From a virus: 25,619 bases of DNA. Of this stretch, positions 5,093 to 24,030 are shown one piece after another. The translations under genes were made by a program, and so were the position numbers. The notes below the pieces were generated by a model. The model was not told where the DNA came from. It saw only the letters and a program-made list of their open reading frames with translations, and did no database searches. Positions within the stretch are counted from its first letter, which is position 1. Every line of letters starts with the position of its first letter. The stretch is taken from positions 1 to 25,619 of IMG/VR virus record IMGVR_UViG_3300022538_000287. One strand, given 5' to 3'.

Positions 5093-6184
5093 CTAATCAG
5101 TCGGATAGCTCCTTTTAGTTTTTGGGGGGCTTAACCTTTCTAATTTACCTAATACTTCGCCCAGTTTTCTTTCACCCCACGTTTGGTATCTCTGCCAGAC
5201 ATCTGGACCGCCCTTGTTTATGGCATCAATTTTGGTTATGTTATCACTCAATACAGCCCTAGCCGCTACCAGGTGACAGAACAATTCTTCGTGGTGTGGT
5301 TTAAGGGTAGAACTCACAAAGGTTACAGCATCACCAGCCACGGTATCAGCTTCAAGTGCAGGCCAGTGGTAAAGCATACTACCTGTACTGTCTTGTCCAT
5401 TAAATGTGGCCGCTTCATAAATTGTGTAAAGAGTTCTGTGATTTGCTATGTAAAATTCATCCCCTACCTCTGGCACTTCTCCTTCGGTAAAACCTTTGAC
5501 TCGAACCCTTCTGTCCCCAGCCTCTCCCTCGTCTGTCCCTGTCATTGTCACTCCGCCTAAATCAGTAAGCTGGCAAAGTCTATGAGGCTTGGCAAACCGG
5601 ACAAGGACATCTATATCACTAGGTGGGTCTTTGGTAGAATCACTATCTTGAACAGAGTCAACATCTATCTCAAGAATATCGCCATAAACCTTGAAGTTCC
5701 TTCGTGTACCAATAGGATATTCTACCGAATCAATCCACAAATGGTCAGTTACATCTTCAACCCCTATATCACCCATAAAGATTTGCTTATTATTTCTGCA
5801 CCGCTTATTGTATATCTCGTAACTCTCACCACTAGCCATTATGCTGGCAGTAAGAGTTTGAATTTCCGTGCTGCTATCGGTCATTATCACAGCCCAAGTA
5901 TTATCAGTAGTATTGTGCACAACCTTTTCAAGGGTTGCATCAGTAGAAAGGAATTGTCCTTTGGTAGTATCGGTTAGTGCAGTAGTTGTACTCCCTGTAT
6001 CAGTCCCCGTTCTACTCTCTATCTTGAATATTACATCAACAATATGAGGGTCATAGGTGGCCAGTTCCTTCAGGGATTCCTCAATCCAATAGGCTACTTC
6101 TGTGGTATCATCATAGGTTGTCCCAGTCGGGTCTTGTAGCATCTGGTTTATTTTTATCAGCATATCAGCATAGCTTGTTGCCAT
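5093..6184 (-). CDS. Head-tail adaptor-like virion protein
   Basis: A 363-residue protein. The N-terminal ~45 residues form paired helices (DMLIKINQMLQDP and EVAYWIEESLKELATYDP) of the type seen in phage head-completion or adaptor proteins (gp6/gp4-like); the middle is beta-rich with many Thr and Asp; and residues about 290-363 return to helices ending in a basic tail (KRSYPTD). Position between the portal-capsid block and the tail hub fits an adaptor or nozzle role. Its ATG directly follows the zinc-ribbon gene's stop (TAAATG), with a G-run ribosome site (GGGGGG) inside that gene. The adaptor label rests on the helical start and context, not on a firm homology. Confidence 0.6.
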   Translation of the reverse strand: MATSYADMLIKINQMLQDPTGTTYDDTTEVAYWIEESLKELATYDPHIVDVIFKIESRTGTDTGSTTTALTDTTKGQFLSTDATLEKVVHNTTDNTWAVIMTDSSTEIQTLTASIMASGESYEIYNKRCRNNKQIFMGDIGVEDVTDHLWIDSVEYPIGTRRNFKVYGDILEIDVDSVQDSDSTKDPPSDIDVLVRFAKPHRLCQLTDLGGVTMTGTDEGEAGDRRVRVKGFTEGEVPEVGDEFYIANHRTLYTIYEAATFNGQDSTGSMLYHWPALEADTVAGDAVTFVSSTLKPHHEELFCHLVAARAVLSDNITKIDAINKGGPDVWQRYQTWGERKLGEVLGKLERLSPPKTKRSYPTD

Positions 6185-6340
6185 TTAGACACCCCCCTTA
6201 AAATTAAAACTAAAAGCAGAAGGCATTAGCCTTGCCTTTGTATTACATCTAGGACATCTAACCCTATGTCTATTCACCACAGGTTTAGACATCTCAAACT
6301 TCTTATGGCATTGAGAACAATAATACTCATATAAAGGCAT
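6185..6340 (-). CDS. Small FmdB-type zinc-ribbon protein
   Basis: A 51-residue protein with two Cys pairs, Cys8/Cys11 (YYCSQCHKKFE) and Cys29/Cys32 (RCPRCNTKA), in the layout of FmdB-family zinc ribbons; the MPLYEYYC opening is also typical of that family. It would bind one zinc ion; FmdB-type ribbons are frequent in phages near capsid and tail genes and their role is not established. The ATG shares a base with a stop codon (TAATG) that ends the orphaned coding fragment just upstream, so it was presumably once coupled to that gene. The stop is adjacent to the adaptor start. A second, longer ribbon of the same type lies after the capsid gene. Confidence 0.85.
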   Translation of the reverse strand: MPLYEYYCSQCHKKFEMSKPVVNRHRVRCPRCNTKARLMPSAFSFNFKGGV

Positions 6341-6381
6341 TACTTCCTCGCTTTCTTACCTGTTGGCTTCTTATACTTGAC
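6340..6381 (-). pseudogene. Displaced 3' end of the small basic protein gene
   Basis: Read on the minus strand this stretch ends ...KKPTGKKARK-stop, almost the same as the C-terminus of the intact small basic gene beyond the HNH gene (...WRPTGRKARK-stop). The similarity covers the last nine codons plus stop (6340-6369 against 6830-6859): 19 of 30 bases agree, and most differences are silent or Lys/Arg swaps. The stop overlaps the zinc-ribbon ATG (TAATG). A 28-codon ORF can be drawn through it from an ATG at 6424-6426, but that start lies inside the HNH gene. Best read as the original gene end cut off by the HNH insertion. Confidence 0.55.
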
Positions 6382-6405
6382 AACCAACTGATAGTTTGTT
6401 ATACT
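6377..6405 (+). promoter_or_regulatory. Consensus extended -10 promoter for the HNH gene, probably leaderless
   Basis: TTGACA (6377-6382, 6/6) and TATACT (6400-6405, 5/6) are separated by exactly 17 bp, with a TGT extended -10 just before. Transcription would start at about 6411-6412, at or next to the ATG at 6412. No ribosome site is visible, so the mRNA is predicted to be leaderless. The -35 box overlaps the displaced gene fragment on the other strand. Confidence 0.75.
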
Positions 6406-6411
6406 TGGGAT

Positions 6412-6840
6412 ATGATTATAAAACATTGTTTAATTTGCCAAACCCCTATTAAGGTCTCCCCTTCTCAACTCGCCTCTAAAAAAACTTGTAGCAGAAAATG
6501 TGATGCCAAGTGGCGTAAGCAATCTGGTCTTTATGCTAGTGAGAACAATCCTGCCTACAAGGGTGGTAAAGTGATTTACGGCGATTATCGCTATGTAAGG
6601 GGCAATCGCCATAAGACCCCCGAACATCGTCTTATAATGGAGCAATATCTTGGTCGCCCACTTTTTTCGTATGAGCAAGTTCATCATATAAACGGTGACA
6701 AGCTTGATAACCGCCTTACGAATCTTTTTGTCTTTAATATCAAAACTCATTCTCGCAATCACTTCCAACTTTTTAAGCGTGTCCAACAATTAGAGCAAGA
6801 AAACCAATTATTAAAAGCAAGATTAGCCTCTATTTCCTAG
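6412..6840 (+). CDS. HNH homing endonuclease-like protein
   Basis: A 142-residue free-standing HNH nuclease and the only clear plus-strand gene. The N-terminus has a zinc-finger pattern (Cys6, Cys9, Cys26, Cys30); NNPAYKGG follows at 45-52; the HNH_3-type catalytic core is VHHINGDKLDNRLTNL (His91, His92, Asn94, Asn100); and residues 118-138 look like a coiled coil. Enzymes of this group nick or cut DNA and spread their own gene by repair-driven homing. It is driven by its own promoter against the direction of the structural operon. Its last 11 bases overlap the 3' end of the small basic gene tail-to-tail, and both ends of the gene border matching coding fragments, the arrangement expected of a homing insertion. 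Confidence 0.92.
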   Translation: MIIKHCLICQTPIKVSPSQLASKKTCSRKCDAKWRKQSGLYASENNPAYKGGKVIYGDYRYVRGNRHKTPEHRLIMEQYLGRPLFSYEQVHHINGDKLDNRLTNLFVFNIKTHSRNHFQLFKRVQQLEQENQLLKARLASIS

Positions 6841-6997
6841 CCTTGCGACCTGTCGGGCGCCATCCGTGCTCAACACCACGCAGTAGATTCATCTGCCTTT
6901 GAGCAGCTATCCTAGATGCGTGAGTTCCCTTAACCTTTTTGGTTGCTGTGTTGATTACCTTAAATTTAGTTCCAACTTTTCTTATTGCGTATGGCAT
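6830..6997 (-). CDS. Small basic phage protein, 55 residues
   Basis: Begins MPYAIRKVGTKFKVIN and ends GVEHGWRPTGRKARK; about a third of residues are Lys or Arg. Short proteins opening MPYxIRKxGxKYKV are common in phage genomes near head or tail genes, where they are unassigned; the charge suggests nucleic-acid or acidic-surface binding. The start has a GGGGGTG ribosome site about 6 nt upstream, and the B12-type radical SAM gene ends 10 nt before it. The stop lies 9 nt inside the end of the opposite-strand HNH gene. Its last nine codons appear to be a substitute supplied with the HNH insertion, because a second, displaced version lies at 6340-6369. Confidence 0.82.
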   Translation of the reverse strand: MPYAIRKVGTKFKVINTATKKVKGTHASRIAAQRQMNLLRGVEHGWRPTGRKARK

Positions 6998-7007
6998 TAT
7001 TCACCCC

Positions 7008-8264
7008 CTATATTTGCCTAAACCCTCTGAAACTTGTATCCTTTTTATTGTATAAATTGTGTGATTGCTCAAGGCAAGCATCTAGCTTCCCCTTATAATA
7101 TTCTGTTACCAATACATCGTTGGCCTTCCGCAATTCCTCGTGGAAAACATCATCGGGTATCTCGGTGAAATTTACACACAGTAAGTCCGAGTTGACATGC
7201 TTATTTTCATAGAAATCCTCTACCCCACCTAGTAATCCCTGTTTGATAGCATAGTAATATAAATCACAACCAGGATACGGGGTGACAGGGCGAATTGTCC
7301 TTAACTGGGCATCATCGCTATACTTCACCACAAAATCAACAGTCTTGTGTAGTGTCTCAATGGTATCCCCGACATTTCCCCACATCACATTAAGCCCTGG
7401 GGATATACCCGATTCCAGTGTGCTTTCTACCCCCCTCGTTATCTGCTCAACTGTTAGGTTTTTATTCATATTCCTGAGAACCTTATCGTCTAAACACTCA
7501 ACGCCATAGTTGATAAATACACAGCCCGCATCTTTCATTGCCCTTAATATCTTTGGTTTAGCATAGTTTAACCTACCGCAACACCCCCATCTTATATTCA
7601 AGGGCTTTAATGCTTCCGAGAGCTTCCTTATCCTATCAGGGCTTACCATCAAAAGTTCATCGTTAAAGAGAATATAGGTTGCACGATACCTTTCCTTTAG
7701 TATCTTAATCTCATCCACAATGCTTTCGGGGCTTCGTGGTCTATACCCTGGCACCATACGATAGCAGAAGGTGCACCTGAATGGACATCCTCTCCCCGAT
7801 AATACAGTGAGACACCTGTCTGTATTATCGCTCCTAGGGAAACGGAAGAGCGAGTAGTAATCCATTGGGAATAAGTCCCAAGCAGGAAGAGCTATATCGT
7901 CTACATTTTCCTTATAATCGTACTCCCCCTCACAGATATAATCTGCAAATTGGGAGAAGTATTCTTTCTCTGGGGCGAACATCTGCCCGCCTAACCATAT
8001 CTTCACATCAGGCGGAATTACACTGATAATCTTCTTAAACTTAGCATACTGGTAATAACCAGCACACATACTCAATCCAACTGCATCAAAGTGCTTCTTG
8101 TTAAGATACTGTTTCAAGTGTTCTTCGGGATAATGGTGGACATCTTGGTTGTAAATCTCTACATTATGTCCCTCATTCCTCATGGCAGAAGCAACATAAG
8201 CCAACCCCATAGGAAACCAGTGTATATGGGAACCATTATCATAAGCTATTAGTAAAATTTTCAT
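7008..8264 (-). CDS. B12-binding-type radical SAM protein
   Basis: A 418-residue enzyme with a Rossmann-like cobalamin-binding-type N-domain (residues 1-115: MKILLIAYDNGS, GLSMCAGYY, WLGGQMF) and a radical SAM domain with the cluster motif CPFRCTFC (Cys160, Cys164, Cys167). The classic DxHxxG cobalamin ligand is not evident, as in many family members. Such proteins bind a [4Fe-4S] cluster and S-adenosylmethionine and catalyse methylations, ring rearrangements or deoxygenations, often in glycan or antibiotic pathways. It is the last gene of the sugar block, overlapping the CMP-sugar synthetase gene by four bases (ATGA). A sugar-modifying reaction is the natural guess; the substrate is unknown. 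Confidence 0.85.
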   Translation of the reverse strand: MKILLIAYDNGSHIHWFPMGLAYVASAMRNEGHNVEIYNQDVHHYPEEHLKQYLNKKHFDAVGLSMCAGYYQYAKFKKIISVIPPDVKIWLGGQMFAPEKEYFSQFADYICEGEYDYKENVDDIALPAWDLFPMDYYSLFRFPRSDNTDRCLTVLSGRGCPFRCTFCYRMVPGYRPRSPESIVDEIKILKERYRATYILFNDELLMVSPDRIRKLSEALKPLNIRWGCCGRLNYAKPKILRAMKDAGCVFINYGVECLDDKVLRNMNKNLTVEQITRGVESTLESGISPGLNVMWGNVGDTIETLHKTVDFVVKYSDDAQLRTIRPVTPYPGCDLYYYAIKQGLLGGVEDFYENKHVNSDLLCVNFTEIPDDVFHEELRKANDVLVTEYYKGKLDACLEQSHNLYNKKDTSFRGFRQI

Positions 8265-9577
8265 TTCTTATACGCATAGAAGGTCATAACATTCCCTGCA
8301 AAGGGAGGGGATACCTTGTCGGTATCAAATAACCTCATTAAGTTCTCCTCTGTAAAATATTCCGTTTCAAAGAATGGGTATGTAACTCTCTCAATATTAA
8401 ACAGGTTATCTTTTAGAAGTTGATACAAACCTAATAAAGAAAACAAACTTATATGCCCTTTATCGTTCAATAATCTAAACCTTTCCTGAAATCTTTGGGC
8501 AACTGCCGAATTGAAATCAGGCGTTGTAATTACTAGTTTCCCCTCGGGTCTGAGCATACGCCGTATATCCTTGATTGCCCCTACAGGGTCAGGGAGGTGT
8601 TCTATGACATGGTTTAGAATAATGGCTTCAAACATATCGTCAGGGAAATCCATCTCCTTGACAATAGACCCATATCGCTCCGCCTCTTCCCTAGCATAAT
8701 CCGATGGTTCAAATCCGAACTTTTCCCATTTATTATCTAGCCCTGAAAGGAAGAAACCAAACCCACACCCATAGTCCAGAACCCTGCCAGAGTATTGATT
8801 CAGATAGTCCAACTGCTCCTTACAAATAGCTACCTGCTTATCCCTCTCAAGTATCATTTCACGATAATTGCCATCAGGGTCAGCCTTTGCCCAGTATCCT
8901 TCTCTATAATCTTCATGTCCATTGCGAGAGACATAATAATCCTTTCCCATTAAGGTCTCGGCTATTAACCAGTCATCCTCATTGTCCAGATGTATGCTAT
9001 CTCGTTTAGGAATAATGACATACCCCCTTTTCCCGCCCAGTCGGTTATGAGTTTCCCTCAATACATCTGCCTTAACAACCCAGCAATTACCCGTTTCTCT
9101 TAAACGGGGTTGTATATCTTGTTTCATAGGTCGTTCCATTATCCTGTTGTCGTCTGTCAAAAAGCCAAAATCCTCAGTCACACAGCAACAACTATCGTAT
9201 CCATTGAGAACCAACTGTATGCAACTATCTATATATTCTGGGCGATTCAAGGGATTTGTTGGCTCCAAAAGAACTACCACCTGACTGAGAACGGTTTTTA
9301 GAACATCTAGCATAGTTTCTTCAGCCTTAGAGGTATCGGTGGCTAGTTCCTGTGTTCTTAGATGCACTCGTATCCTATTACCAAACAAATCATTGGCTAT
9401 TCCCAGAATCTTAGCACTATTGGATGATACCACTACAGTATCAACAAGTTTGGAATCTAGCGCATTTTTAATCTGGTAATAGAGTAGGGGCTTACCTCCG
9501 ACATCTCGGATATTCTTATGCTTGATTCCCTTACTCCCATACCTGGCGGGAATAATAGCTAAAACTTTACTTATCAA
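8261..9577 (-). CDS. CMP-sialate synthetase-like cytidylyltransferase fused to a SAM methyltransferase
   Basis: A 438-residue two-domain protein. Residues 1-210 match acylneuraminate cytidylyltransferases (NeuA type): IPARYGSKGIKHKNI at 9-23 for CTP binding, VVVLLEPTNPLNRPEYID at 100-117, and LDNEDDWLIAE at 197-207 with metal-binding acidic residues. These activate sialic-type sugars as CMP-sugars. Residues about 255-438 are a class I methyltransferase with SAM motif VLDYGCGFG (266-274), acidic FEPSD (289-293) and HVIEHL (323-328). The start must be a TTG (9575-9577), with GGTGGG upstream; the ORF overlaps the SPASM gene's end by 11 bases. The fusion suggests methylation of the sugar before, during or after CMP activation. 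Domain calls are firm; the sugar is not known. Confidence 0.88.
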   Translation of the reverse strand: MISKVLAIIPARYGSKGIKHKNIRDVGGKPLLYYQIKNALDSKLVDTVVVSSNSAKILGIANDLFGNRIRVHLRTQELATDTSKAEETMLDVLKTVLSQVVVLLEPTNPLNRPEYIDSCIQLVLNGYDSCCCVTEDFGFLTDDNRIMERPMKQDIQPRLRETGNCWVVKADVLRETHNRLGGKRGYVIIPKRDSIHLDNEDDWLIAETLMGKDYYVSRNGHEDYREGYWAKADPDGNYREMILERDKQVAICKEQLDYLNQYSGRVLDYGCGFGFFLSGLDNKWEKFGFEPSDYAREEAERYGSIVKEMDFPDDMFEAIILNHVIEHLPDPVGAIKDIRRMLRPEGKLVITTPDFNSAVAQRFQERFRLLNDKGHISLFSLLGLYQLLKDNLFNIERVTYPFFETEYFTEENLMRLFDTDKVSPPFAGNVMTFYAYKK

Positions 9578-10670
9578 TAAAACCCACCTTCGCCCCTCGT
9601 TTTCTCAAAATGTAAAACCCATCCTCTTCTCGAATGTTAATCATAGTGTCTAACTTGGGCGGCTTGGGATTTCCTCTACGCAAGTTATCACACCCCTTAA
9701 TAGAATCTGTATAATATAAGGCTACCATTCTACATCCAGCCTGACAGGTTTCAAGTCTAGGGCAATTCTGGCATTCTTCTGGTATATATTCCCCAGAACG
9801 CCACACCCTCATATTCCCCCAAACGCCCTTAATACCTATTTCGTGTATATTGCCATAGGTTTCACCCTCATGGGGACAAGCCCTAGCATTACCCTGAACA
9901 TCTGTTAATATTTGGGTCATAGCGTGACATCCTCTATGAGTAAATTCCAAATCATCACCATCTGGGTCATCAAAGAAACACTCAGGTGTCGTCCTACAAG
10001 ATTGAACCTCTATGCCCAATGCCCTGACTCGTTTCAAATCACTAAACATCTTTTGGGTCTGCTCCTTACCTGCTAAGAACTCCTGCTGCAAGCTCCCCTT
10101 ATTGTTTTGGCTGGGGATACATCTGTTGGCCATAAATTTCTTTACCCCCATCTTGTAGAGCAGTTTACCCGCTTCAAACACATCACCCTTATTATGCTCC
10201 GAGACAATGGCGTTTACCGACACTCTAATCCCTGCTTCTTGGGTAACTTTAATACCCCTTATTACCTTGTGCCATGTTTTAGCACTTGCCATAAAGTTAT
10301 GAACTTCAGGTTTATGTGAGAATAGTGTAGTCAAGCAATGGTCTACACCCGCATCTTTAAGTTTCCCCATTTTGTCGGGGGTGGCTGAAACCAGGTTGGA
10401 GTTCAGGCTAATGGTCATACCTGCATTGGTACACTTCTTCGCAAGATAAATTGTCTTTTCCACGGCAAGTAATGGCTCGCCACCAGTGATAATGACATGC
10501 ATTACCTTGTTTTTAATTAACTCACTTATCGTGTTATCTAAGTTTTCCCACGATATGCTCTGGGGCTTAAACGATTCCCCCCTACAGAAGTTATAGCAAT
10601 GACGGCATCGCTCGTCACAGGCTTCTGTAATTTCAATGTGAGCTGTTATAGGTGCTGATAAATTCCTCAA
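9567..10670 (-). CDS. Radical SAM protein with SPASM domain
   Basis: A 367-residue radical SAM enzyme: CDERCRHC (Cys18, Cys22, Cys25) binds the SAM cluster, GGEP is at 63-66, and the C-terminus has the complete SPASM spacing: Cys248, Cys265, then Cys300-x2-Cys303-x5-Cys309-x3-Cys313 and Cys327, which hold two auxiliary [4Fe-4S] clusters. SPASM enzymes usually modify peptides or proteins (sactipeptide, PQQ, sulfatase maturation), and some act on sugars. The start is a TTG: an in-frame TGA lies two codons upstream, no ATG or GTG precedes the Cys motif, and GGGG lies about 7 nt before the TTG. It overlaps the HAD gene by 38 bases and the synthetase gene by 11. Confidence 0.88.
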   Translation of the reverse strand: MRNLSAPITAHIEITEACDERCRHCYNFCRGESFKPQSISWENLDNTISELIKNKVMHVIITGGEPLLAVEKTIYLAKKCTNAGMTISLNSNLVSATPDKMGKLKDAGVDHCLTTLFSHKPEVHNFMASAKTWHKVIRGIKVTQEAGIRVSVNAIVSEHNKGDVFEAGKLLYKMGVKKFMANRCIPSQNNKGSLQQEFLAGKEQTQKMFSDLKRVRALGIEVQSCRTTPECFFDDPDGDDLEFTHRGCHAMTQILTDVQGNARACPHEGETYGNIHEIGIKGVWGNMRVWRSGEYIPEECQNCPRLETCQAGCRMVALYYTDSIKGCDNLRRGNPKPPKLDTMINIREEDGFYILRKRGAKVGFIDK

Positions 10671-10953
10671 TTGTCATCCCCTTATCATCTATAAAAAAGT
10701 CCGCCTCTGGCTTACCAAAGATTAGTTCGTGATACTTTACCCCCCAATTCATAAGTTGTTTCTCAGTAAAACTCTTCCAATCTATTCCTGTTACAGTTCC
10801 CCTAGCAGAAAAAAGTGTAATCTGATTCCCCTGCTCGTATAGCTCATTTATCCTTGCTATTCTCTCCTTGTAAGGCGCTGCCTTGTTATAAGGAATCGTA
10901 TTATCTGGTTCCTGGGTACAAATAGTGCCATCAATATCAAAGCAATACCTCAC
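10633..10953 (-). CDS. Small HAD-family phosphatase
   Basis: A 106-residue HAD hydrolase with all four motifs: DIDGT (nucleophile Asp6, acid Asp8), FSARG (Ser49), Lys81 in FGKPEADFF, and the metal-binding DD at 89-90. It lacks a cap domain. Compact HAD proteins of this kind occur in capsule and nucleotide-sugar loci. Next to a NeuB-like synthase it could dephosphorylate a 9-phosphate nonulosonic acid, as in the known NANS/NANP and Kdn pathways; that substrate is inferred. The start is a GTG overlapping the NeuB stop (GTGA), with AGGGAG 6 nt upstream. The 38-base overlap with the SPASM gene means both are read through the same stretch in different frames. Confidence 0.82.
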   Translation of the reverse strand: MRYCFDIDGTICTQEPDNTIPYNKAAPYKERIARINELYEQGNQITLFSARGTVTGIDWKSFTEKQLMNWGVKYHELIFGKPEADFFIDDKGMTIEEFISTYNSSH

Positions 10954-11711
10954 ATCATACTCCCTATATTTCGTGCATCTCTAACCATTATGTGTAAGCC
11001 CCTTTCTTCCAGTGAAGATGATTGGTCACTCCCGTAACTGGAGCGGTCTAGCGTAATGTGTTTCTCTACGGCAACCGCACCAAGGGCTACAGCTATTGAT
11101 GTATCTATAACGCCTGGGAAATGCGCACTATAGCCTACTGGCACACCATACTCTTTAAGTTCCCGAATCTGGCTCAGGTTACACTTATTAAGAGGGCAGG
11201 GATAATCCATAACACAGTGCATTAAGGTCATCGGACAACCTTTCTGTGCGAAAATATCCACCGCATTATATATGGCATCCTCATCATTTAACCCCGTTGA
11301 TATGAAGGTATGTTTCCCCTCCTCAGCGATAGTTCTTAAAAGTTCCTCATTAGTAATCATCTTGGATGCCACCTTGTTATAGTTCAGGTTATATTTCCCC
11401 AAGAATAACTGACTCCCTACATCCCAAGATGAGGCATACCAATAAATCCCATTTTGCTTACAATAATCATCAATCTCATCATATTCAGAGTCAAACTCTA
11501 GTCCCAGTTTTTGTTCTCGCTGAGTAGTCCCCCACGGACTCTGTCGAGTACCATTAAGGAACTCCTCAGTATAGACCTTATCTACTGTGCGTTTCTGAAA
11601 TTTAACCGCATCACAATCACACCTGATTGCCATATTGATTAACTTCTTGGCAATCTCAATGTCGCCATTATGGTTTATCCCAATTTCAGCAGTAATAAAT
11701 ACCTTATCCAT
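10950..11711 (-). CDS. NeuB-like nonulosonic acid synthase, barrel domain only
   Basis: A 253-residue TIM-barrel enzyme of the N-acetylneuraminate synthase family, which condenses phosphoenolpyruvate with a six-carbon amino sugar or its phosphate to give a nine-carbon sugar acid. Visible family motifs: AEIGINHNGD (8-17), AVKFQKR (35-41), KVASKMITN (113-121), FISTGL (136-141), GYSAHF (193-198) and AVAVEKHITLD (212-222). Cellular NeuB proteins are near 340 residues and end in a SAF (antifreeze-like) domain that closes the partner subunit's active site; here the protein stops right after the barrel. The gene overlaps the cupin gene by 8 bases and the HAD gene by 4. Family call firm; exact sugar unknown. 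Confidence 0.88.
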   Translation of the reverse strand: MDKVFITAEIGINHNGDIEIAKKLINMAIRCDCDAVKFQKRTVDKVYTEEFLNGTRQSPWGTTQREQKLGLEFDSEYDEIDDYCKQNGIYWYASSWDVGSQLFLGKYNLNYNKVASKMITNEELLRTIAEEGKHTFISTGLNDEDAIYNAVDIFAQKGCPMTLMHCVMDYPCPLNKCNLSQIRELKEYGVPVGYSAHFPGVIDTSIAVALGAVAVEKHITLDRSSYGSDQSSSLEERGLHIMVRDARNIGSMM

Positions 11712-12021
11712 ATGACTCCGTTAAACGATAAACATCCCCCTCATCGTGATGGGTAGAAACCTCAAGAATTACAGCTTGGTTAATTCCCAAAAAGCTGTGC
11801 GGGGTGTTTGGCTCTATAGTGATAGGTTCCTTCAAGTCAAATTCTTGCCCATCTACTGTAAAGATTACATTGCCCATTAGACAGTAAAAGGTTTCCTTCT
11901 TATTCTTATGGTAATGCACCGAACTCTGCCCACCTAGATTTATATAGAGCAACTTACCGCAGTATTCCTTGCAGTTTGCTATCCATTCCTCTCTACCCCA
12001 CTTCTTAACTCGAGTTTCCAC
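11704..12021 (-). CDS. Cupin protein (sugar isomerase/epimerase-like)
   Basis: A 105-residue single-domain cupin. Motif 1 is complete (GGQSSVHYHKNKKETFYCLMG), giving metal ligands His36, His38 and Glu43; motif 2 (PNTPHSFLG) supplies His75. The WGREEWI opening resembles the cupin half of mannose-6-phosphate isomerase/guanylyltransferase proteins and of small cupins found beside NeuB genes. It may interconvert the six-carbon precursor for NeuB or bind an activated sugar. I prefer the GTG start at 12019-12021; a TTG at 12037-12039 would add six residues but has no spaced ribosome site. It overlaps the upstream 80-residue gene by 17 bases, so it is translated with phage structural-region genes. 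Confidence 0.8.
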   Translation of the reverse strand: METRVKKWGREEWIANCKEYCGKLLYINLGGQSSVHYHKNKKETFYCLMGNVIFTVDGQEFDLKEPITIEPNTPHSFLGINQAVILEVSTHHDEGDVYRLTESYG

Positions 12022-12247
12022 TCTCGTTGAGTTCCTCAATACCTATATCGTTTTCATCCACTCGGAACTCTTGCCCCCACAACTCTGCCTCATGCCCAAG
12101 ATGAGTAAGTTGCGATTGTAAAAGTTGTCTACCCTGACCTCCAACTACAGACTCAAGGCCCACAATTAAATCATCAAGTGTTTTTCCCTCCTTGCTTATG
12201 AGGGATACCTCATTACCGCCACCACCAAATCTACTTAATTTATCCAT
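12005..12247 (-). CDS. Hypothetical protein, 80 residues
   Basis: Unrecognised. The protein has a glycine patch (FGGGGNE) near the start, a helical middle (LDDLIVGLESVVGG, QLLQSQLTHLGHEAE) and an acidic, Ser/Asn-rich end. No Cys, signal peptide or membrane segment. The ATG shares one base with the stop of the 107-residue gene (TAATG) with GGATGAG upstream, and the end runs into the cupin gene in another frame. Its coupling to both a virion-type gene and a sugar gene shows that the sugar block is not transcribed as an isolated cassette. Confidence 0.65.
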   Translation of the reverse strand: MDKLSRFGGGGNEVSLISKEGKTLDDLIVGLESVVGGQGRQLLQSQLTHLGHEAELWGQEFRVDENDIGIEELNESGNSS

Positions 12248-12561
12248 TAGTATCTCATCCCCTTAACTCTTATTAATCTTTCTGCCATCTGTGGTTCAGT
12301 GGAGCATACCTTAATGTATCGAAAACCACCCAGTATCCACGCAGCACCTCGGTCAAAGGTTTCTAAATCAGTTGTAGTCTCCCTACCTAAATCTTGGTAA
12401 GGGCCAGCCAGCACCTCTGCTACCTGTAAGTACATTTTACATTTATCCATTCGTGGTATCCGTACGCTTAGGTTATCATACTCTATACCAAGGTCTATGG
12501 CAGATGACTCACTAGCACCAACTGCTATAGTAGCAGTCACCCATTGTCCGTATCTACTCAT
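12247..12561 (-). CDS. Small virion-associated protein, about 104 residues
   Basis: Begins MSRYGQWVTATIAVGASESSAIDLG. Short beta-rich proteins with this opening (a strand, then 'ASxSxAIDLG') recur in phage head-tail regions and are probably decoration or tail-surface subunits; I know no named function. A GTG nine bases further upstream is open, but it would sit only about 2 nt from the ribosome site, so I choose the ATG at 12559-12561. GGAGGG lies about 10 nt upstream, separated from it by an alternating TG run. One base overlaps the next start. Confidence 0.72.
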   Translation of the reverse strand: MSRYGQWVTATIAVGASESSAIDLGIEYDNLSVRIPRMDKCKMYLQVAEVLAGPYQDLGRETTTDLETFDRGAAWILGGFRYIKVCSTEPQMAERLIRVKGMRY

Positions 12562-12577
12562 TACACACACACCCTCC

Positions 12578-18136: not shown

Positions 18137-18298
18137 TTATAGCTTTATGCTTTTTACAGCCTCTTCAATCCTTATGGGTTGCCCTGCTTCCAAGTATAGT
18201 ACAACCCTCCCATATCCAATTTCGTGGAGTAACTTTAGTAGTTTTTGCTCGTTCTTACTTATTATAACAGGTGTTTCTTTAGTTGTCAAGTCATTCAC
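18137..18298 (-). CDS. YezD-like (DUF2292) small protein
   Basis: A 53-residue protein: a short variable start, then NEQKLLKLLHEIGYGRVVL (16-34) and GQPIRIEEAVKSIKL (39-53). This is the signature of the YezD/DUF2292 family ('LLxLIREIGYGEVxIxVQDGxPVRVExxKKSIKL'), a small compact domain present in bacteria and phages whose function is not established. The GTG start overlaps the stop of the giant gene (GTGA), with AAAGGG upstream. The gene body contains a perfect sigma-70 promoter, so its reading frame and a promoter for downstream genes share the same bases. Confidence 0.82.
   Translation of the reverse strand: MNDLTTKETPVIISKNEQKLLKLLHEIGYGRVVLYLEAGQPIRIEEAVKSIKL
18261..18289 (-). promoter_or_regulatory. 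Perfect sigma-70 promoter inside the YezD-like gene
   Basis: On the minus strand TTGACA (18284-18289) and TATAAT (18261-18266) match the consensus at 6 of 6 positions each, with a 17-bp spacer ending in TGT (extended -10). Transcription should begin near 18254 and run towards scaffold and capsid; it meets the intrinsic terminator about 165-195 nt later. It is the best promoter match I found on the minus strand. Confidence 0.75.
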
Positions 18299-21200
18299 CT
18301 CAACCCTTTCAATAACTCTTCTAACTCACGCATAGCTTCATCAAATTCTGCCTCTGCCTTAGTAACATCCTCTAGGAACTCCTCAGTTGGCGTTAATTCA
18401 GCCCTCCGCTTCTGCTCTGCGGCTGGAACTAAACCAAATTTCAAGACCATCCAAGCATCAAGACTGGGGTTTTCGTAACGATAATCCAATCGCCTTTTAC
18501 CCGTTGGTAATTTGACATACTCTAGATACTTAGCAAATATATCTCTTGTAGGAACCTTACTGAAGTCCCTTGGTTTATTGCCTTGAAAGCCAAGATAAAC
18601 CTCCTCGTAAATATCTGGGTGCTCTATGAGATACCAGTCATCCTCATACCAAAGGTCAGTCTTATTTACATCTTCCCAATCATCTGGCTTTACTTTCTTT
18701 TCCTTGAGGTATCCAAGGTACTTGGCATAAACCTCTCTGGTGGGGACTTTGCTAAAATCTTTTTCTTGAATAATCTCCTTGTCAACCATAGCTTGGTAGA
18801 ATTCAGGGTTCTCCATTAAGAACCAATCATCCTCATAATCCTTGCGTTCTGTCATATACCAATCAATGTAGTTGTCTATCTGCCCTTCAGGGAAATCTAT
18901 TTGAAGGGCGTTCTTTTTGTAATTGAGTTTCCTGTATTCCTCGGAGGCTTCAGCCAATCTATCTAGTTCAACATTGATACGCAGTACATCTTCATTCCAA
19001 TCACTACCGTCATCGGTTAGTAGCTTATTGTCCAATGCCCACTTGTGAGCCTCTGGATTATCCAATAACCAAACCTTAGCCTGAGAACTACCAGCACCGA
19101 ACTCGTCTATGGTTTTACCCCTGTCAACCCATTTCTCCATAATCTCATCTGATGCGTCATTATCAATAGCTTCTATACGCCTCATATCAGCAACCCAATT
19201 AGGATTGTCTTCCTTGAATTTTGCCCTTGCCTCCTTGCGTAACTCCGCATCCTCTATGTAATTGGGTGCTTCTGTGTTTCCAAAGTTCTCATATTCTGTA
19301 GTCTGGTCAAACCATTTCTGCTCCAGTTCAAACTTCTGGGTGAATAACTCATCATACCTACTAGGGTCGTCCAGAAAAGCCCTGATTGCTTCTGGGGGTA
19401 TGTCGTATTTCTTCATTAAGCCCAGTAGTATCTCAGCACTCTTGGGGTTCTTAAAGGAGGATACTTTGCCAAACAGATAAAGCAGGGCTTCCACATCAGG
19501 GAATTGCTGTCGCCACAATAATCTAGCATCATCTTCTTCTAGGTTGTAATACGGTTCCCACAAATCCTGTGCGTGTAGTGCCTCAATAGCAAGGGCGTGT
19601 CCGTCTCGTTCTACCTTAGACCTGCCCTGTATTCTTACATAATTATTTACTTCGGTAAGGAAGTTGCTGATGGTAAAGTATTCCGCAGGCTCGGCAACAA
19701 CCAGTTTCTCAAGTTCACCGAGCCTATTTTGAAACTTCTGGAGTTCAGGCTTTGTGTCAATGCCAAATACCTTCTCATAGCCATCAATCAACTCAGTATC
19801 TATCTTGTGTTCTTCAATAAGCCTTAGAACTTCTGCTCTAGCCTCATCAGATGACAATACCGTAAATTGACCCACAATAAACATTTTAGCTTCAATTTTG
19901 GGATTATCTATTCTCCATTGATTTCTGATTTTAGCATCAGACCAACCAATTTGCTGTGGATGTGCTTTAAGATATTCAAATTTAAGGTCTGGGTCATATA
20001 TACCCTCATCATCTTTGAAAAGTGGATAGGCTTCAAATTCCTTCTCCCACTTATTCCTTAACCGCTTTATCTCTATATCCTTGCCTTCAAGATAAAGAAG
20101 TAATGTTAGCCAATCCCTTTCCCCGGTCGCCACATAATTCATCTGCTTGATTATGCTGGGAATAAAAGTTGACTTCAGGCTGTTCCAGCCAGTTTTAAGT
20201 CGCCTATCATCATCAGTAACAAAGCCCACAACAAGGTCAGCAACAGCACCAGGGGCTTGTAGGGCAGGGAAATCGCCACCAACTATATCAGCTAAATAAC
20301 TTAATGAGGTTAGCCCCGTATATTCCCAAGCCTTTAGTCTAGTTTTCTCTTTAAGTGCATATCCCAGTCCAACAATGAGCATATACATTAAGATGGCTTT
20401 GCTGGTCTGTGACCAATTCTTTACAGGCATTGCTTGACCTGTCTCTTTTGTATAAGCCAGAAACACTTGTGAAGGTCTTACTTTAATCCACTTAGTCATT
20501 AACTCCATCCAATTTTCAGTCCAAGTGGTTAGCATTGAGAATACCCTGCCAATAGAGTTTTGAGACATAGAAAAACTATTAAATTTTGTGTAGAGATACT
20601 GCGTATCAGCAGCTACCTCATCACCCCTATTTATCCACAATTCCCTGGGAGCATTGGGGAATAACTCTTTAGCCTCAGCATAACCAGCAAGAAAGGCATC
20701 GGATACATTCTGCTTATCAGCAAAGCGGAACATCCACAAAGCTTTTTCACGAAAACTATCAGTCCACTTACTGGCAAAGGAAGAATCAATCGCAGGTATA
20801 AACGCTCCCCTACGAGAACGCAATACCAAACTTTCTTTTAGGGCAGCCCTGCCTTCTGGGGTAACTCGCAGGCCTAGTCCCTTAGCAAAGTTTATCGGCC
20901 CTGCTTCTGCAATAATTAAACTATGCTGTCCCAGATTTCTGATAGCAGATGTAGGCTTAAAGCCAAGCCACAAAGTGTATAGAACACTGGTAAGATTATA
21001 AGATATCATTCCGCCTGGATTGCCCCTTGTCAGCGAATTGGCAAATGCTTCTCCGCCTGGTAGCCCCCTAACCCTATCGGCAAACTCATTGACTGTTCGG
21101 TTTAATTCTCTATCTATGGTAAGGGGTCTGTCTGTGATTCTTGTAATGAAGTTGCTCAAATACCTCGCTGAATGCGGAGGTAAGTATTTCTGATAAACCC

Positions 21201-24030
21201 TAATTCTTTGGATAAGTGGCTCATAGTAGAACACCTTTAATGCCCTAGCTTCATAAGCCTTGGCAGCAGCAAATGGGTCTTCCCTTAATCCAATCGTCTG
21301 TCCCAACCGCCTTTGGAGATATGGATTAAACACTGTTTTGGGAGTTATAAAATCAAGTGCCTTGATAAGTTCGGGGTCTATTGGATGCTTACCTTTGAGT
21401 TGCTGGCTTATCTCTTCCTCAAAGATATGGGTTACATAATTCGTTCTGCGTTTATTCTCTGGTAAATTGAGCCTATCAGCCCAGCTGTCAAAGTATTTCC
21501 TGAACCAAGTAACTGCCCGTTTCTCATCAAAGGTTAATCCAACTTGAGAACCTGGATTTTCTAATTCCCTAAACACTAACCTACGCCTTGCGGGGTCTTT
21601 GCCAACCAGCTTTCCAATTCTATTTAATTCCTTATCAAAAGCCTGATGCTCTTCATAAACTAAAACCTCAGCCTCAAATGCTGGCTTCCAAACTTCCTGC
21701 CTTAATCCCATCTTCTCAAAGACGTGGCGAGTAGGTCTAACCTTCTCTAATATCCCAATCTCTTTAAGGAGTGGTATCTTATCAGCAAACTCTGCGGTGA
21801 TTAAACCTACGCCAGTCGGTATCACTGGGGGTCTACCATATTTGACTTCTAATCTACCAACAGCCTCTATTACTAAATCAGCTTCACCCTGAGTTAGTTG
21901 GTTAATTCTATTCTTGCCAGTCAGGGCTTTCATTAACCTGCGGAGTTGGGGTTTAGTCTTACCCTCCTCAGTCATAATCAGTTTTTCTTTAGCAAGGGTA
22001 TTTATGCTTTCTGTTTGCTCACTGGTAATAGCCCTTTCAGCTATAACTTCAGGTTCTACTGGAGGTTTAGCAACTTCAACTGCTGGGGGTTCTACAATAG
22101 CCCTTACCGCATCCTCTAATCCTTCCATACCAGCCAAGGCTTCTCCCCTCGCCTCTGGTGTAACTGCTTCTTGTGCCTGTTTTAGATACTCCTTGAATTG
22201 AACTAGGGAAGTATTGGTGGGTTCTATCTTCTCGGCAACCACAACTAATTCTGCCCCCTCTTTCATCAAGGCAGCCATCAATGGTGGTGCTTCAGGCACT
22301 TCTGGTATTACAACTGCTTCGGGTTCAGCTATATGTTCCCAAGCCAATGCCTCAGTCTTATCCACAGGCTTAACGGATTCAATGCTTTCCTCTTTTATAA
22401 CCTCTTCAACAACCCTATCAGTAATATCCTGAACTTCCCTGTTATCACCTATCGCATCAAGTGCTTCAATTTTAGCCTGTATATCAGAAGCACCATCAGC
22501 TTTTAATCTATCTACCGTGGCATCAAACTCTGGCTTGACATCAGTAGGTAATTGCCCTGAAACCCTATTAGTGATTGTAGTGAGGACATCAGCGGCACCT
22601 CCCATACCAAAACCCATAATCGCACCAACCATAAATGCCATCTTCATTTCATTGTCCCACTCCACCTCAAGTCCCAGTGCCTGTCTTTCAATAACATTCT
22701 GTATTGCCTCTTCACCACCTTCAGTTAAGGACACGGTAACTATTTTGCCACCAACCCTAACAACCGTAGCTAACCCCCTACCAACTAGATTATTAAGTGT
22801 TCCCGTAGGGTCAGGGAGAAAGGCGGCAAAGAGCTGTATTGCGTTCGTGCCAGTAAGAGCACCAACTCCTTTTGTAAAAGTGCTTTGGGCAGCTTCATCG
22901 GCATCTTCATCAGACCATCCCATAAGTTTCGCTTCATTCCAAACACTGCCAGCCTCAAAAGATGATTCCAATATTGCTCCACTAGCACCAGCAAATATAG
23001 ATGCTATAAGATGAGCCTTCCAAGTTCCTACTCCTACTGCTGCCAATGTTGCTGAGCCAGTGCCAAAGGTCATTAAACTAATCGGTATCATCGCTACTGA
23101 AAAGGGTAATGCCCTTGCTACTACCGTTGACCAAAAGCGTGGGTCTAACAGGGTTTTTAGTGATACATCCCATTCCTCTACTGGAGGAGCAACCCTATGA
23201 AAAGACCTTGCTATCTCTAGTAGATTTCCCCTTAGTGTTTCATTACCAAGCCAACCAGCTACACCTGCTGCCCCAGAAACCAAATCACCATAGCCAGCCG
23301 ATATAGACCTCATCGGCAAAGTATCTAAAAATCCCCAGAGGTAAGGTTCGCTTACCTCCTCCCATTTTGCCCGCCACCCCTCAGCATCTAAGTCAAGTTT
23401 AGATAACTCAATAATCTTTTTAATTTCATCTTCGGGGACACCACCTATTTGGAGTATTTCACGCTTACGCTTATCCGACATTCCATAGATGGTTTCTAAA
23501 TCTCGCCGAGTAAAGCCTATATATTGTAATAGCCTATCACTGGCGATGGTTCTAGGCATTGCCTTTATATCCCCCAGAAAACTCTCCCAATCAGTTTCAA
23601 CATATTCAATGAATTCTTCGGTAGTCAAGTCGGGGAATACACTTTGCACCATTGCTTCCCGTTCTTCAACCTCAACAAAATATTCCTCGGGTACACCCAG
23701 AGTTCGCAATACAAAATCACGCTCTTCGGGGGTTGCTCTAACATCAAGGTCGTAAAGAAATGCCTCTGGGTCTTCTTGTGCCAAAGAACTTAATTCAACC
23801 ATTTTGGTTGGCAGGTCTTCAGGTTTCAAGGTCGGAAAACTAGGATAAAGCCGAGCAATAAGTGGATATAACTCAGCAGGTTCAAGGGTTGCAGGTTCTA
23901 CCGGAGGTAACTCCTCTACTGGCTCAATAGGGGGGAGTTCCTCTTCGGGAACCGCCAATGGCTCAATCGGAGGCTTCTTACGCCTTCTCTCAATCTCTAG
24001 TATTTCCTTATGTGTTATACCAGTAGTCAT
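18295..24030 (-). CDS. Giant internal virion / ejection-type protein, 1911 residues
   Basis: A single 5.7-kb ORF. Residues 18-52 are a Pro/Glu-rich linker (PPIEP, PPVEP repeats). Residues 300-360 and 463-483 are hydrophobic, Gly/Ala-rich and could insert in membrane; between them EGGEEAIQNVIERQ resembles a motif I have seen in phage internal proteins. A second Pro/Glu region lies near 600-680. The centre (about 750-1400) is helical with further apolar segments (YNLTSVLYTLWLGF, ILMYMLIVGLGYAL). The C-terminal ~500 residues repeat an 'xNPxxxxxM/A' helical unit, ending in two close copies. No catalytic motif recognised. Size and position after the portal match ejection proteins that form a DNA-delivery channel. 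AGGAG precedes the ATG. Confidence 0.7.
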   Translation of the reverse strand: MTTGITHKEILEIERRRKKPPIEPLAVPEEELPPIEPVEELPPVEPATLEPAELYPLIARLYPSFPTLKPEDLPTKMVELSSLAQEDPEAFLYDLDVRATPEERDFVLRTLGVPEEYFVEVEEREAMVQSVFPDLTTEEFIEYVETDWESFLGDIKAMPRTIASDRLLQYIGFTRRDLETIYGMSDKRKREILQIGGVPEDEIKKIIELSKLDLDAEGWRAKWEEVSEPYLWGFLDTLPMRSISAGYGDLVSGAAGVAGWLGNETLRGNLLEIARSFHRVAPPVEEWDVSLKTLLDPRFWSTVVARALPFSVAMIPISLMTFGTGSATLAAVGVGTWKAHLIASIFAGASGAILESSFEAGSVWNEAKLMGWSDEDADEAAQSTFTKGVGALTGTNAIQLFAAFLPDPTGTLNNLVGRGLATVVRVGGKIVTVSLTEGGEEAIQNVIERQALGLEVEWDNEMKMAFMVGAIMGFGMGGAADVLTTITNRVSGQLPTDVKPEFDATVDRLKADGASDIQAKIEALDAIGDNREVQDITDRVVEEVIKEESIESVKPVDKTEALAWEHIAEPEAVVIPEVPEAPPLMAALMKEGAELVVVAEKIEPTNTSLVQFKEYLKQAQEAVTPEARGEALAGMEGLEDAVRAIVEPPAVEVAKPPVEPEVIAERAITSEQTESINTLAKEKLIMTEEGKTKPQLRRLMKALTGKNRINQLTQGEADLVIEAVGRLEVKYGRPPVIPTGVGLITAEFADKIPLLKEIGILEKVRPTRHVFEKMGLRQEVWKPAFEAEVLVYEEHQAFDKELNRIGKLVGKDPARRRLVFRELENPGSQVGLTFDEKRAVTWFRKYFDSWADRLNLPENKRRTNYVTHIFEEEISQQLKGKHPIDPELIKALDFITPKTVFNPYLQRRLGQTIGLREDPFAAAKAYEARALKVFYYEPLIQRIRVYQKYLPPHSARYLSNFITRITDRPLTIDRELNRTVNEFADRVRGLPGGEAFANSLTRGNPGGMISYNLTSVLYTLWLGFKPTSAIRNLGQHSLIIAEAGPINFAKGLGLRVTPEGRAALKESLVLRSRRGAFIPAIDSSFASKWTDSFREKALWMFRFADKQNVSDAFLAGYAEAKELFPNAPRELWINRGDEVAADTQYLYTKFNSFSMSQNSIGRVFSMLTTWTENWMELMTKWIKVRPSQVFLAYTKETGQAMPVKNWSQTSKAILMYMLIVGLGYALKEKTRLKAWEYTGLTSLSYLADIVGGDFPALQAPGAVADLVVGFVTDDDRRLKTGWNSLKSTFIPSIIKQMNYVATGERDWLTLLLYLEGKDIEIKRLRNKWEKEFEAYPLFKDDEGIYDPDLKFEYLKAHPQQIGWSDAKIRNQWRIDNPKIEAKMFIVGQFTVLSSDEARAEVLRLIEEHKIDTELIDGYEKVFGIDTKPELQKFQNRLGELEKLVVAEPAEYFTISNFLTEVNNYVRIQGRSKVERDGHALAIEALHAQDLWEPYYNLEEDDARLLWRQQFPDVEALLYLFGKVSSFKNPKSAEILLGLMKKYDIPPEAIRAFLDDPSRYDELFTQKFELEQKWFDQTTEYENFGNTEAPNYIEDAELRKEARAKFKEDNPNWVADMRRIEAIDNDASDEIMEKWVDRGKTIDEFGAGSSQAKVWLLDNPEAHKWALDNKLLTDDGSDWNEDVLRINVELDRLAEASEEYRKLNYKKNALQIDFPEGQIDNYIDWYMTERKDYEDDWFLMENPEFYQAMVDKEIIQEKDFSKVPTREVYAKYLGYLKEKKVKPDDWEDVNKTDLWYEDDWYLIEHPDIYEEVYLGFQGNKPRDFSKVPTRDIFAKYLEYVKLPTGKRRLDYRYENPSLDAWMVLKFGLVPAAEQKRRAELTPTEEFLEDVTKAEAEFDEAMRELEELLKGLR
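18511..18834 (-). repeat. Tandem C-terminal repeats in the giant protein
   Basis: Two ~45-residue units, residues 1733-1776 (18703-18834) and 1796-1840 (18511-18645), share EDDWxLxExPxxY, DFSKVPTRxxxAKYLxYxK. More distant copies of the ENP/DNP-containing part occur earlier (DNPEAHKWALDNKLL, DNPNWVADMRRIEA) and later (ENPSLDAWMVLKFGL). The codons of the two best copies differ, so this is an old duplication kept at the protein level. Confidence 0.65.

Follow-up and report, generated by a model that had tools for sequence, protein, structure and literature searches.

Homing endonucleases of the free-standing type are usually said to lie between genes. The locus studied here raises the question of why the end of a small phage gene is present on both sides of such an endonuclease gene, once in use and once stranded. 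The locus lies within the window, i.e., the whole stretch of 25,619 nucleotides that was analysed (IMG/VR record IMGVR_UViG_3300022538_000287), and its features are collected in Table 1. The end of the 55-codon gene, the HNH reading frame, the orphan end and the TAATG overlap, in which the final base of the orphan stop also opens the zinc-ribbon ATG, were all re-found where a sequence-only reading had placed them. That reading described the 55-codon gene and the HNH gene as lying tail to tail; the orientation was correct, but the two genes do not abut, since their tails overlap by 11 nt. The stop codon of the 55-codon gene (TAG, 6830-6832) directly follows WRPTGRKARK. In the orphan, the first lysine codon (6370-6372) is not homologous to the relatives, and the homologous part comprises the last nine codons (6343-6369) and the stop. 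The orphan end also contains a Shine-Dalgarno-like ribosome-binding site for the zinc-ribbon gene (GAGG, 6346-6349). Deletion of 6370-6859 fused W46 to the orphan end and gave 55 codons, exactly as claimed earlier. The alignment of the orphan with the end in use reached a BLOSUM62 score of 38 over 10 amino acids, compared with a maximum of 34 in 60 shuffles of the whole window read in six frames, and the likeness of the two ends thus exceeds chance. The product of the 55-codon gene gave no Pfam match above the cut-off, and the consensus end of its family is HGWKPTGKxARK.

Table 1. Features of the occupied locus in the window and candidate swapped ends at other HNH loci (HNH-free relatives: L017, L112).
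Feature or locus	Position	Strand	Kind	Basis or remark
Zinc-ribbon gene, 51 codons	6185..6340	-	Zn_ribbon_8	Pfam E 2e-9
Orphan 3' end, KKPTGKKARK-TAA	6340..6372	-	old end	28/33 nt identical to L017
Minimal inserted element (predicted)	6370..6859	.	new end, HNH gene and promoter	difference from empty sites L017 and L112
Promoter-like site, TTGACA-17-TATACT	6377..6405	+	sigma70 type	11/12, consensus match only
HNH_3 endonuclease gene, 142 aa	6412..6840	+		Pfam HNH_3 and PHROG HNH; overlaps target tail by 11 nt
55-codon target gene	6830..6997	-	conserved small phage protein family	about 98 relatives in IMG/VR
Putative replacement 3' end, codons 46-55, WRPTGRKARK	6833..6862	-		comparison with L017 end and codon usage
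L138 (same in L318)			3' swap	FTANFHQIR-stop / FTAHFHQIR-stop
L169			3' swap	C5 methylase
L226			3' swap	sugar epimerase
L289			3' swap	antisense HNH, tail to tail like the window
L208			3' swap	Arc-like protein; HNH protein fused to old end
L336 (Laceyella sacchari DSM 43356)			3' swap	C5 methylase; HNH protein fused to old end
L134 (same in L293)			5' swap	CHAP lysin
L331			5' swap	
L373			5' swap	radical SAM, below Pfam cut-off
L284			5' swap	
L332			5' swap	
L326			5' swap	DUF5131; HNH gene starts with target's old start
L233			5' swap	ParB; HNH gene starts with target's old start
L196, L163, L205, L275			internal	methylase genes; HNH gene out of frame in read-through insert

The endonuclease assignment was based on an HNH_3 domain (Pfam E 3e-10; 40 bits versus a curated cut-off of 24.8) and a PHROGs match (E 1e-15), and the HHIN...DNR motif of the protein was intact. 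The promoter-like site, in which TG precedes the second hexamer, is separated from the HNH ATG by 6 nt, with the orphan on its other side. No RNA family was matched by Rfam within 5900-7300; hence, there is no recognised intron at the locus. Having its own ORF on the opposite strand, the HNH gene lies inside neither an intron nor an intein and is of the free-standing type. Instead of being split by a surrounding intron ribozyme, as in group I introns, the gene end is duplicated. The IMG/VR search with the HNH protein returned no close relative, and a second occupied copy of the exact site was therefore not found. Among GenBank phages, there was neither a DNA match to the locus nor a relative of the 55-aa protein.

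The sequence-only reading had predicted HNH-free relatives in which the small gene adjoins the zinc-ribbon gene through TAATG. Two such relatives were identified: L017 (IMGVR_UViG_3300033153_007508), reading GVERGWKPTGKKARK-TAATG-zinc ribbon, and L112 (3300005782_000009), reading GVKRGWKPTGKKARK-TAATG-zinc ribbon. In both, the small gene ends in GWKPTGKKARK. The zinc-ribbon proteins of L017, of a further relative, L018, and of L112 were 78%, 76% and 71% identical to that of the window. Over the last 33 nt, L017 shared 30 positions with L112 and 31 with L018. The orphan matched L017 at 28, L018 at 26 and the new end at 20 of these 33 positions. The new end agreed with L017 at only 21/33 nt, yet at 9 of 11 residues (stop included), which bears out the silent-site divergence noted earlier. 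By this comparison, the orphan is the resident, ancestral end and the end in use is the newcomer. Since L017 and L112 differ as much from each other (61% DNA identity in the gene body, 82% in the zinc ribbon) as the window does from L017 (71% and 84%), the 71% body identity is uninformative on the extent of the exchange. The body is highly variable among relatives, and more of the 55-codon gene than its 10-codon end may have been replaced. The borders of the minimal element are those given by comparison with diverged empty sites, with one occupied allele known. In L047 and L048, another HNH gene (28% identity to that of the window) was located 5 nt behind a member of the same small-gene family, with no orphan, so that the end of this gene family is a repeated HNH site. 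A LAGLIDADG-like ORF was also observed in L115 (1589-2008; Pfam E 5e-4, short of the cut-off); it is flanked by two small genes and lies just upstream of a zinc-ribbon homologue to which the 55-codon gene is not adjacent there.

Codon usage was compared post hoc. Among the arginine codons of the window genes, CGC accounted for 3.8%, CGT for 8.2% and AGA/AGG for 70%. The body of the small gene carries AGA, AGG and AGG, the new end CGT, CGC, CGC and AGG, and the HNH gene CGY at 8 of 11 arginines. The unusual codons of the tail (CGT40, CGC47, CCG48 and CGC51) begin near codon 40 (6880). Codons 1-39 fitted native usage (P 0.91), codons 40-55 did not (P 0.02), and neither did the HNH gene (P 0.004), although the last value is confounded by the opposite strand, as that for the gene end is not. 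By this modest evidence, the new end may have arrived horizontally together with the HNH element. No source of the new end was found in the comparisons made.

HNH_3 loci of three sources (IMG/VR, GTDB genomes and named phages) were searched for same-strand peptide repeats across the HNH borders. With both copies confined to the borders and a score of at least 45, repeats were present at 18 of 246 HNH loci; among 367 control genes taken from these loci, there were 5 with repeats (Fisher P 1.8e-4), a control rate at which approximately 3 of the 18 would be expected anyway. The excess persisted at cut-offs from 38 to 50, and there was no significant difference from controls at 34 or 36. A version with wider flanks gave 27 of 152 loci versus 3.9 expected from GC-matched random pairing; after a complexity filter, it gave 17/221 versus 7/231 control genes (P 0.02). 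Hand classification, which was not blind, yielded about 13 further swaps in phage and bacterial genes (six 3' ends, seven 5' starts); L336, L233, L332 and the internal case L275 scored below 45 and were accepted on reading. The sequence-only reading had known of no phage case, a view overtaken by these roughly one dozen candidates, which involve large and small genes and both 5' and 3' ends. Among the nineteen HNH loci of named phages, there was no terminal swap. In the terminal swaps, the peptide was kept between the copies at a DNA identity of 0.53-0.83, and in most cases the same codon was used at half or fewer of the identical residues. The HNH was fused to the stranded target end in four swaps (L208, L336, L326 and L233); the ParB of L233 and the methylase of L336 were named from sequence. 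For L336, an HNH-free relative (L391) was found in a genome belonging to the same family; its end, QAGNSVTVNVIYEIAKRM, resembles the stranded end of L336 (QAGNSVTVNVIYEIAKQM) and not the one in use (QAGNSVSVPVIFEIAKRM), and its DNA is equally distant from both. Empty sites for L138 were sought, and none were found.

At the four internal loci, an ALKPAxEPI...KPL motif flanks the insert on both sides. An HNH gene nested out of frame was also found in the methylase ORF of Mycobacterium phage Starcevich. This DNA methyltransferase ORF (gp66; L213:157-3201) seems, by its sequence, to contain an intein-like insert as well, besides the read-through insert that holds the HNH gene in another frame. Several candidates were dropped: L298 and L310, in which the repeat reflected two flanking glycosyltransferases; L139, L280 and L370, with copies outside coherent gene ends; L351, from which no intact gene was recovered; and L148, L176 and L200, which were low-complexity matches.

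The anatomy, the two empty sites, the polarity of the ends and the recurrence in other genes point to an HNH homing element that has no intron and brings its own diverged version of the gene end into which it is inserted, a reading to which we assign a probability of roughly three in four. Among the alternatives, mosaic recombination, in which the conserved 3' end marks a recombination boundary and a diverged copy of the whole 55-codon gene, joined at the old end, brought the HNH gene along passively, is unlikely, although part of the data speaks for it. At the same place, L018 carries a diverged member of the small-gene family (555-728; 45% protein identity to the body of the window gene), yet its end matches that of L017 at 31/33 nt, so that the 3' end of the small gene looks like a recombination boundary. 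Moreover, the gene block at 7008-12039 separates the small gene of the window from the homologue of its usual neighbour. Against a passive arrival, codons 1-39 are native in usage and codons 40-55 are not, and swapped ends recur exactly at HNH borders in other loci, which points to the HNH gene. The replacement of small family genes seen in L018 would also suit an HNH gene that entered between two tandem paralogues, the second of which was then mostly lost. This history is highly improbable: the empty relatives have one gene, and two family ends in tandem were found at 0 of 99 family loci (the sole double match, in L078, was a chance motif), so relatives with two PTGxKARK ends, which the sequence-only reading had named as damaging to its proposal, did not appear. 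Still less probable is a local target-site duplication of the last 30 nt at insertion, followed by drift. The repeat is as long as some known duplications; however, the stranded copy would be expected to drift and the used copy to stay, the opposite was observed, and other terminal cases are only 53-83% identical in DNA despite a conserved peptide. An assembly artefact or a chance resemblance can practically be dismissed, even for a metagenomic contig, as the overlapping frames are intact, the empty sites are as predicted, the score exceeded every shuffle, and there are independent cases, one of them in a cultured bacterium.

For the end-bringing homing element, we infer how cleavage and homing would proceed, where the new end came from and what its divergence does, as follows. 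The element would consist of the HNH endonuclease gene, its own promoter-like sequence and a divergent version of the final codons of its target. Judging from the border, the 55-codon gene of HNH-free alleles would be cleaved by the nuclease around codons 45-48. Repair from the element-bearing genome would then copy in the new end, the HNH gene and the promoter, with homology provided by the gene body on the left and by the old end and the zinc-ribbon gene on the right. The gene body would thereby be joined to the end supplied by the element and the protein would remain at 55 residues; no splicing would be needed, because the new end would restore the protein at once. The silent divergence of the new end would block both re-cutting and loss through recombination between the copies. 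The orphan end may have been kept undecayed because it houses the ribosome-binding site of the zinc-ribbon gene.

Some further observations were made in the window. A block of genes on the minus strand (7008-12039) lies between the 55-codon gene and a gene for a 107-aa protein (12247-12570); in L112, a homologue of this 107-aa gene precedes the small gene by about 1.2 kb. By sequence, the block appears to encode radical SAM enzymes, a sugar-nucleotide transferase-methyltransferase fusion, a phosphatase, a NeuB-like synthase and a cupin, and it looks like a glycan or nonulosonic-acid cassette. Near the major head protein gene, the minus strand (18295-24030) encodes a 1911-aa protein that weakly matched the virion RNA polymerase family (PHROG E 2e-5). 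Close to the contig end, a type IV pilin-like signal (GFTLIELLIVVAILGVLA) is present in a phage gene (26-514, minus strand).

The closest precedent is given by the mobile ORFs (mORFs) of fungal mitochondria. The Allomyces-type case invoked by the sequence-only reading is real: in the accessible part of PMC3630166, mORFs are described for atp6 of Allomyces macrogynus, cited as the first case, and for atp6, atp9, cox2 and nad3 of Glomus sp. The arrangement by which such end-replacing elements are recognised, an intact gene with a new end on one side of the endonuclease gene and a stranded old end on the other, was found in the window. As there, an endonuclease ORF is inserted with a foreign carboxy-terminus and the native end is left downstream (PMC3630166); the native mORF end is 91.2% identical in nucleotides to that of a relative, and the two ends are 63.5% identical to each other. 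The fungal elements differ in organism and in type of genome, the enzyme encoded by the Glomus atp6 insert is LAGLIDADG rather than HNH_3, and the cases described in that accessible text are C-terminal only, whereas 5' swaps also occur among the phage and bacterial loci (PMC3630166). Unlike the mORFs in that text, some HNH genes found here are fused to the stranded end, and that of the window is antisense with a promoter-like site. In phage T4, the free-standing mob and seg genes (HNH/GIY-YIG) are likewise intron-less and close to conserved genes, and several of the enzymes cut in a neighbouring gene and are preferentially inherited; however, in the available portion of PMC2988022, they are described as intergenic, with no mention of end replacement or stranded ends. 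Many HNH-type genes at recurrent positions are also known from Skunavirus, where they are not in introns (PMC12724721), and from ICP1-type phages (PMC10448857), but the accessible passages of both name the insertion places by neighbouring genes and mention no terminal duplications. Group I introns and inteins with homing endonucleases spare the target gene as well, through RNA or protein splicing, whereas the interrupted coding segment is re-supplied in the window. Publications describing the replacement of gene ends by HNH genes in phages were sought in one open-access library and none was found, an absence that is no proof. Because no mention of it was found in the accessible accounts of phage homing genes, an end-replacing homing element with HNH_3 in phages, at both gene ends, appears to be new.

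We consider it somewhat probable that phage and prokaryotic HNH_3 genes commonly reside inside coding genes without splicing by supplying a recoded terminal copy, 3' or 5', and that this has been overlooked. If true, carrying a substitute for the severed piece would be a third harmless way to occupy a gene, beside introns and inteins, and a natural counterpart of engineered gene drives with a recoded rescue copy. It would leave a searchable signature, an orphan gene end beyond the HNH gene, would explain stray gene ends adjoining HNH genes and would predict the cut site of each enzyme. Many HNH annotations now termed 'intergenic' would then mark genes with replaced ends, and selfish genes would produce chimeric protein ends in phages.
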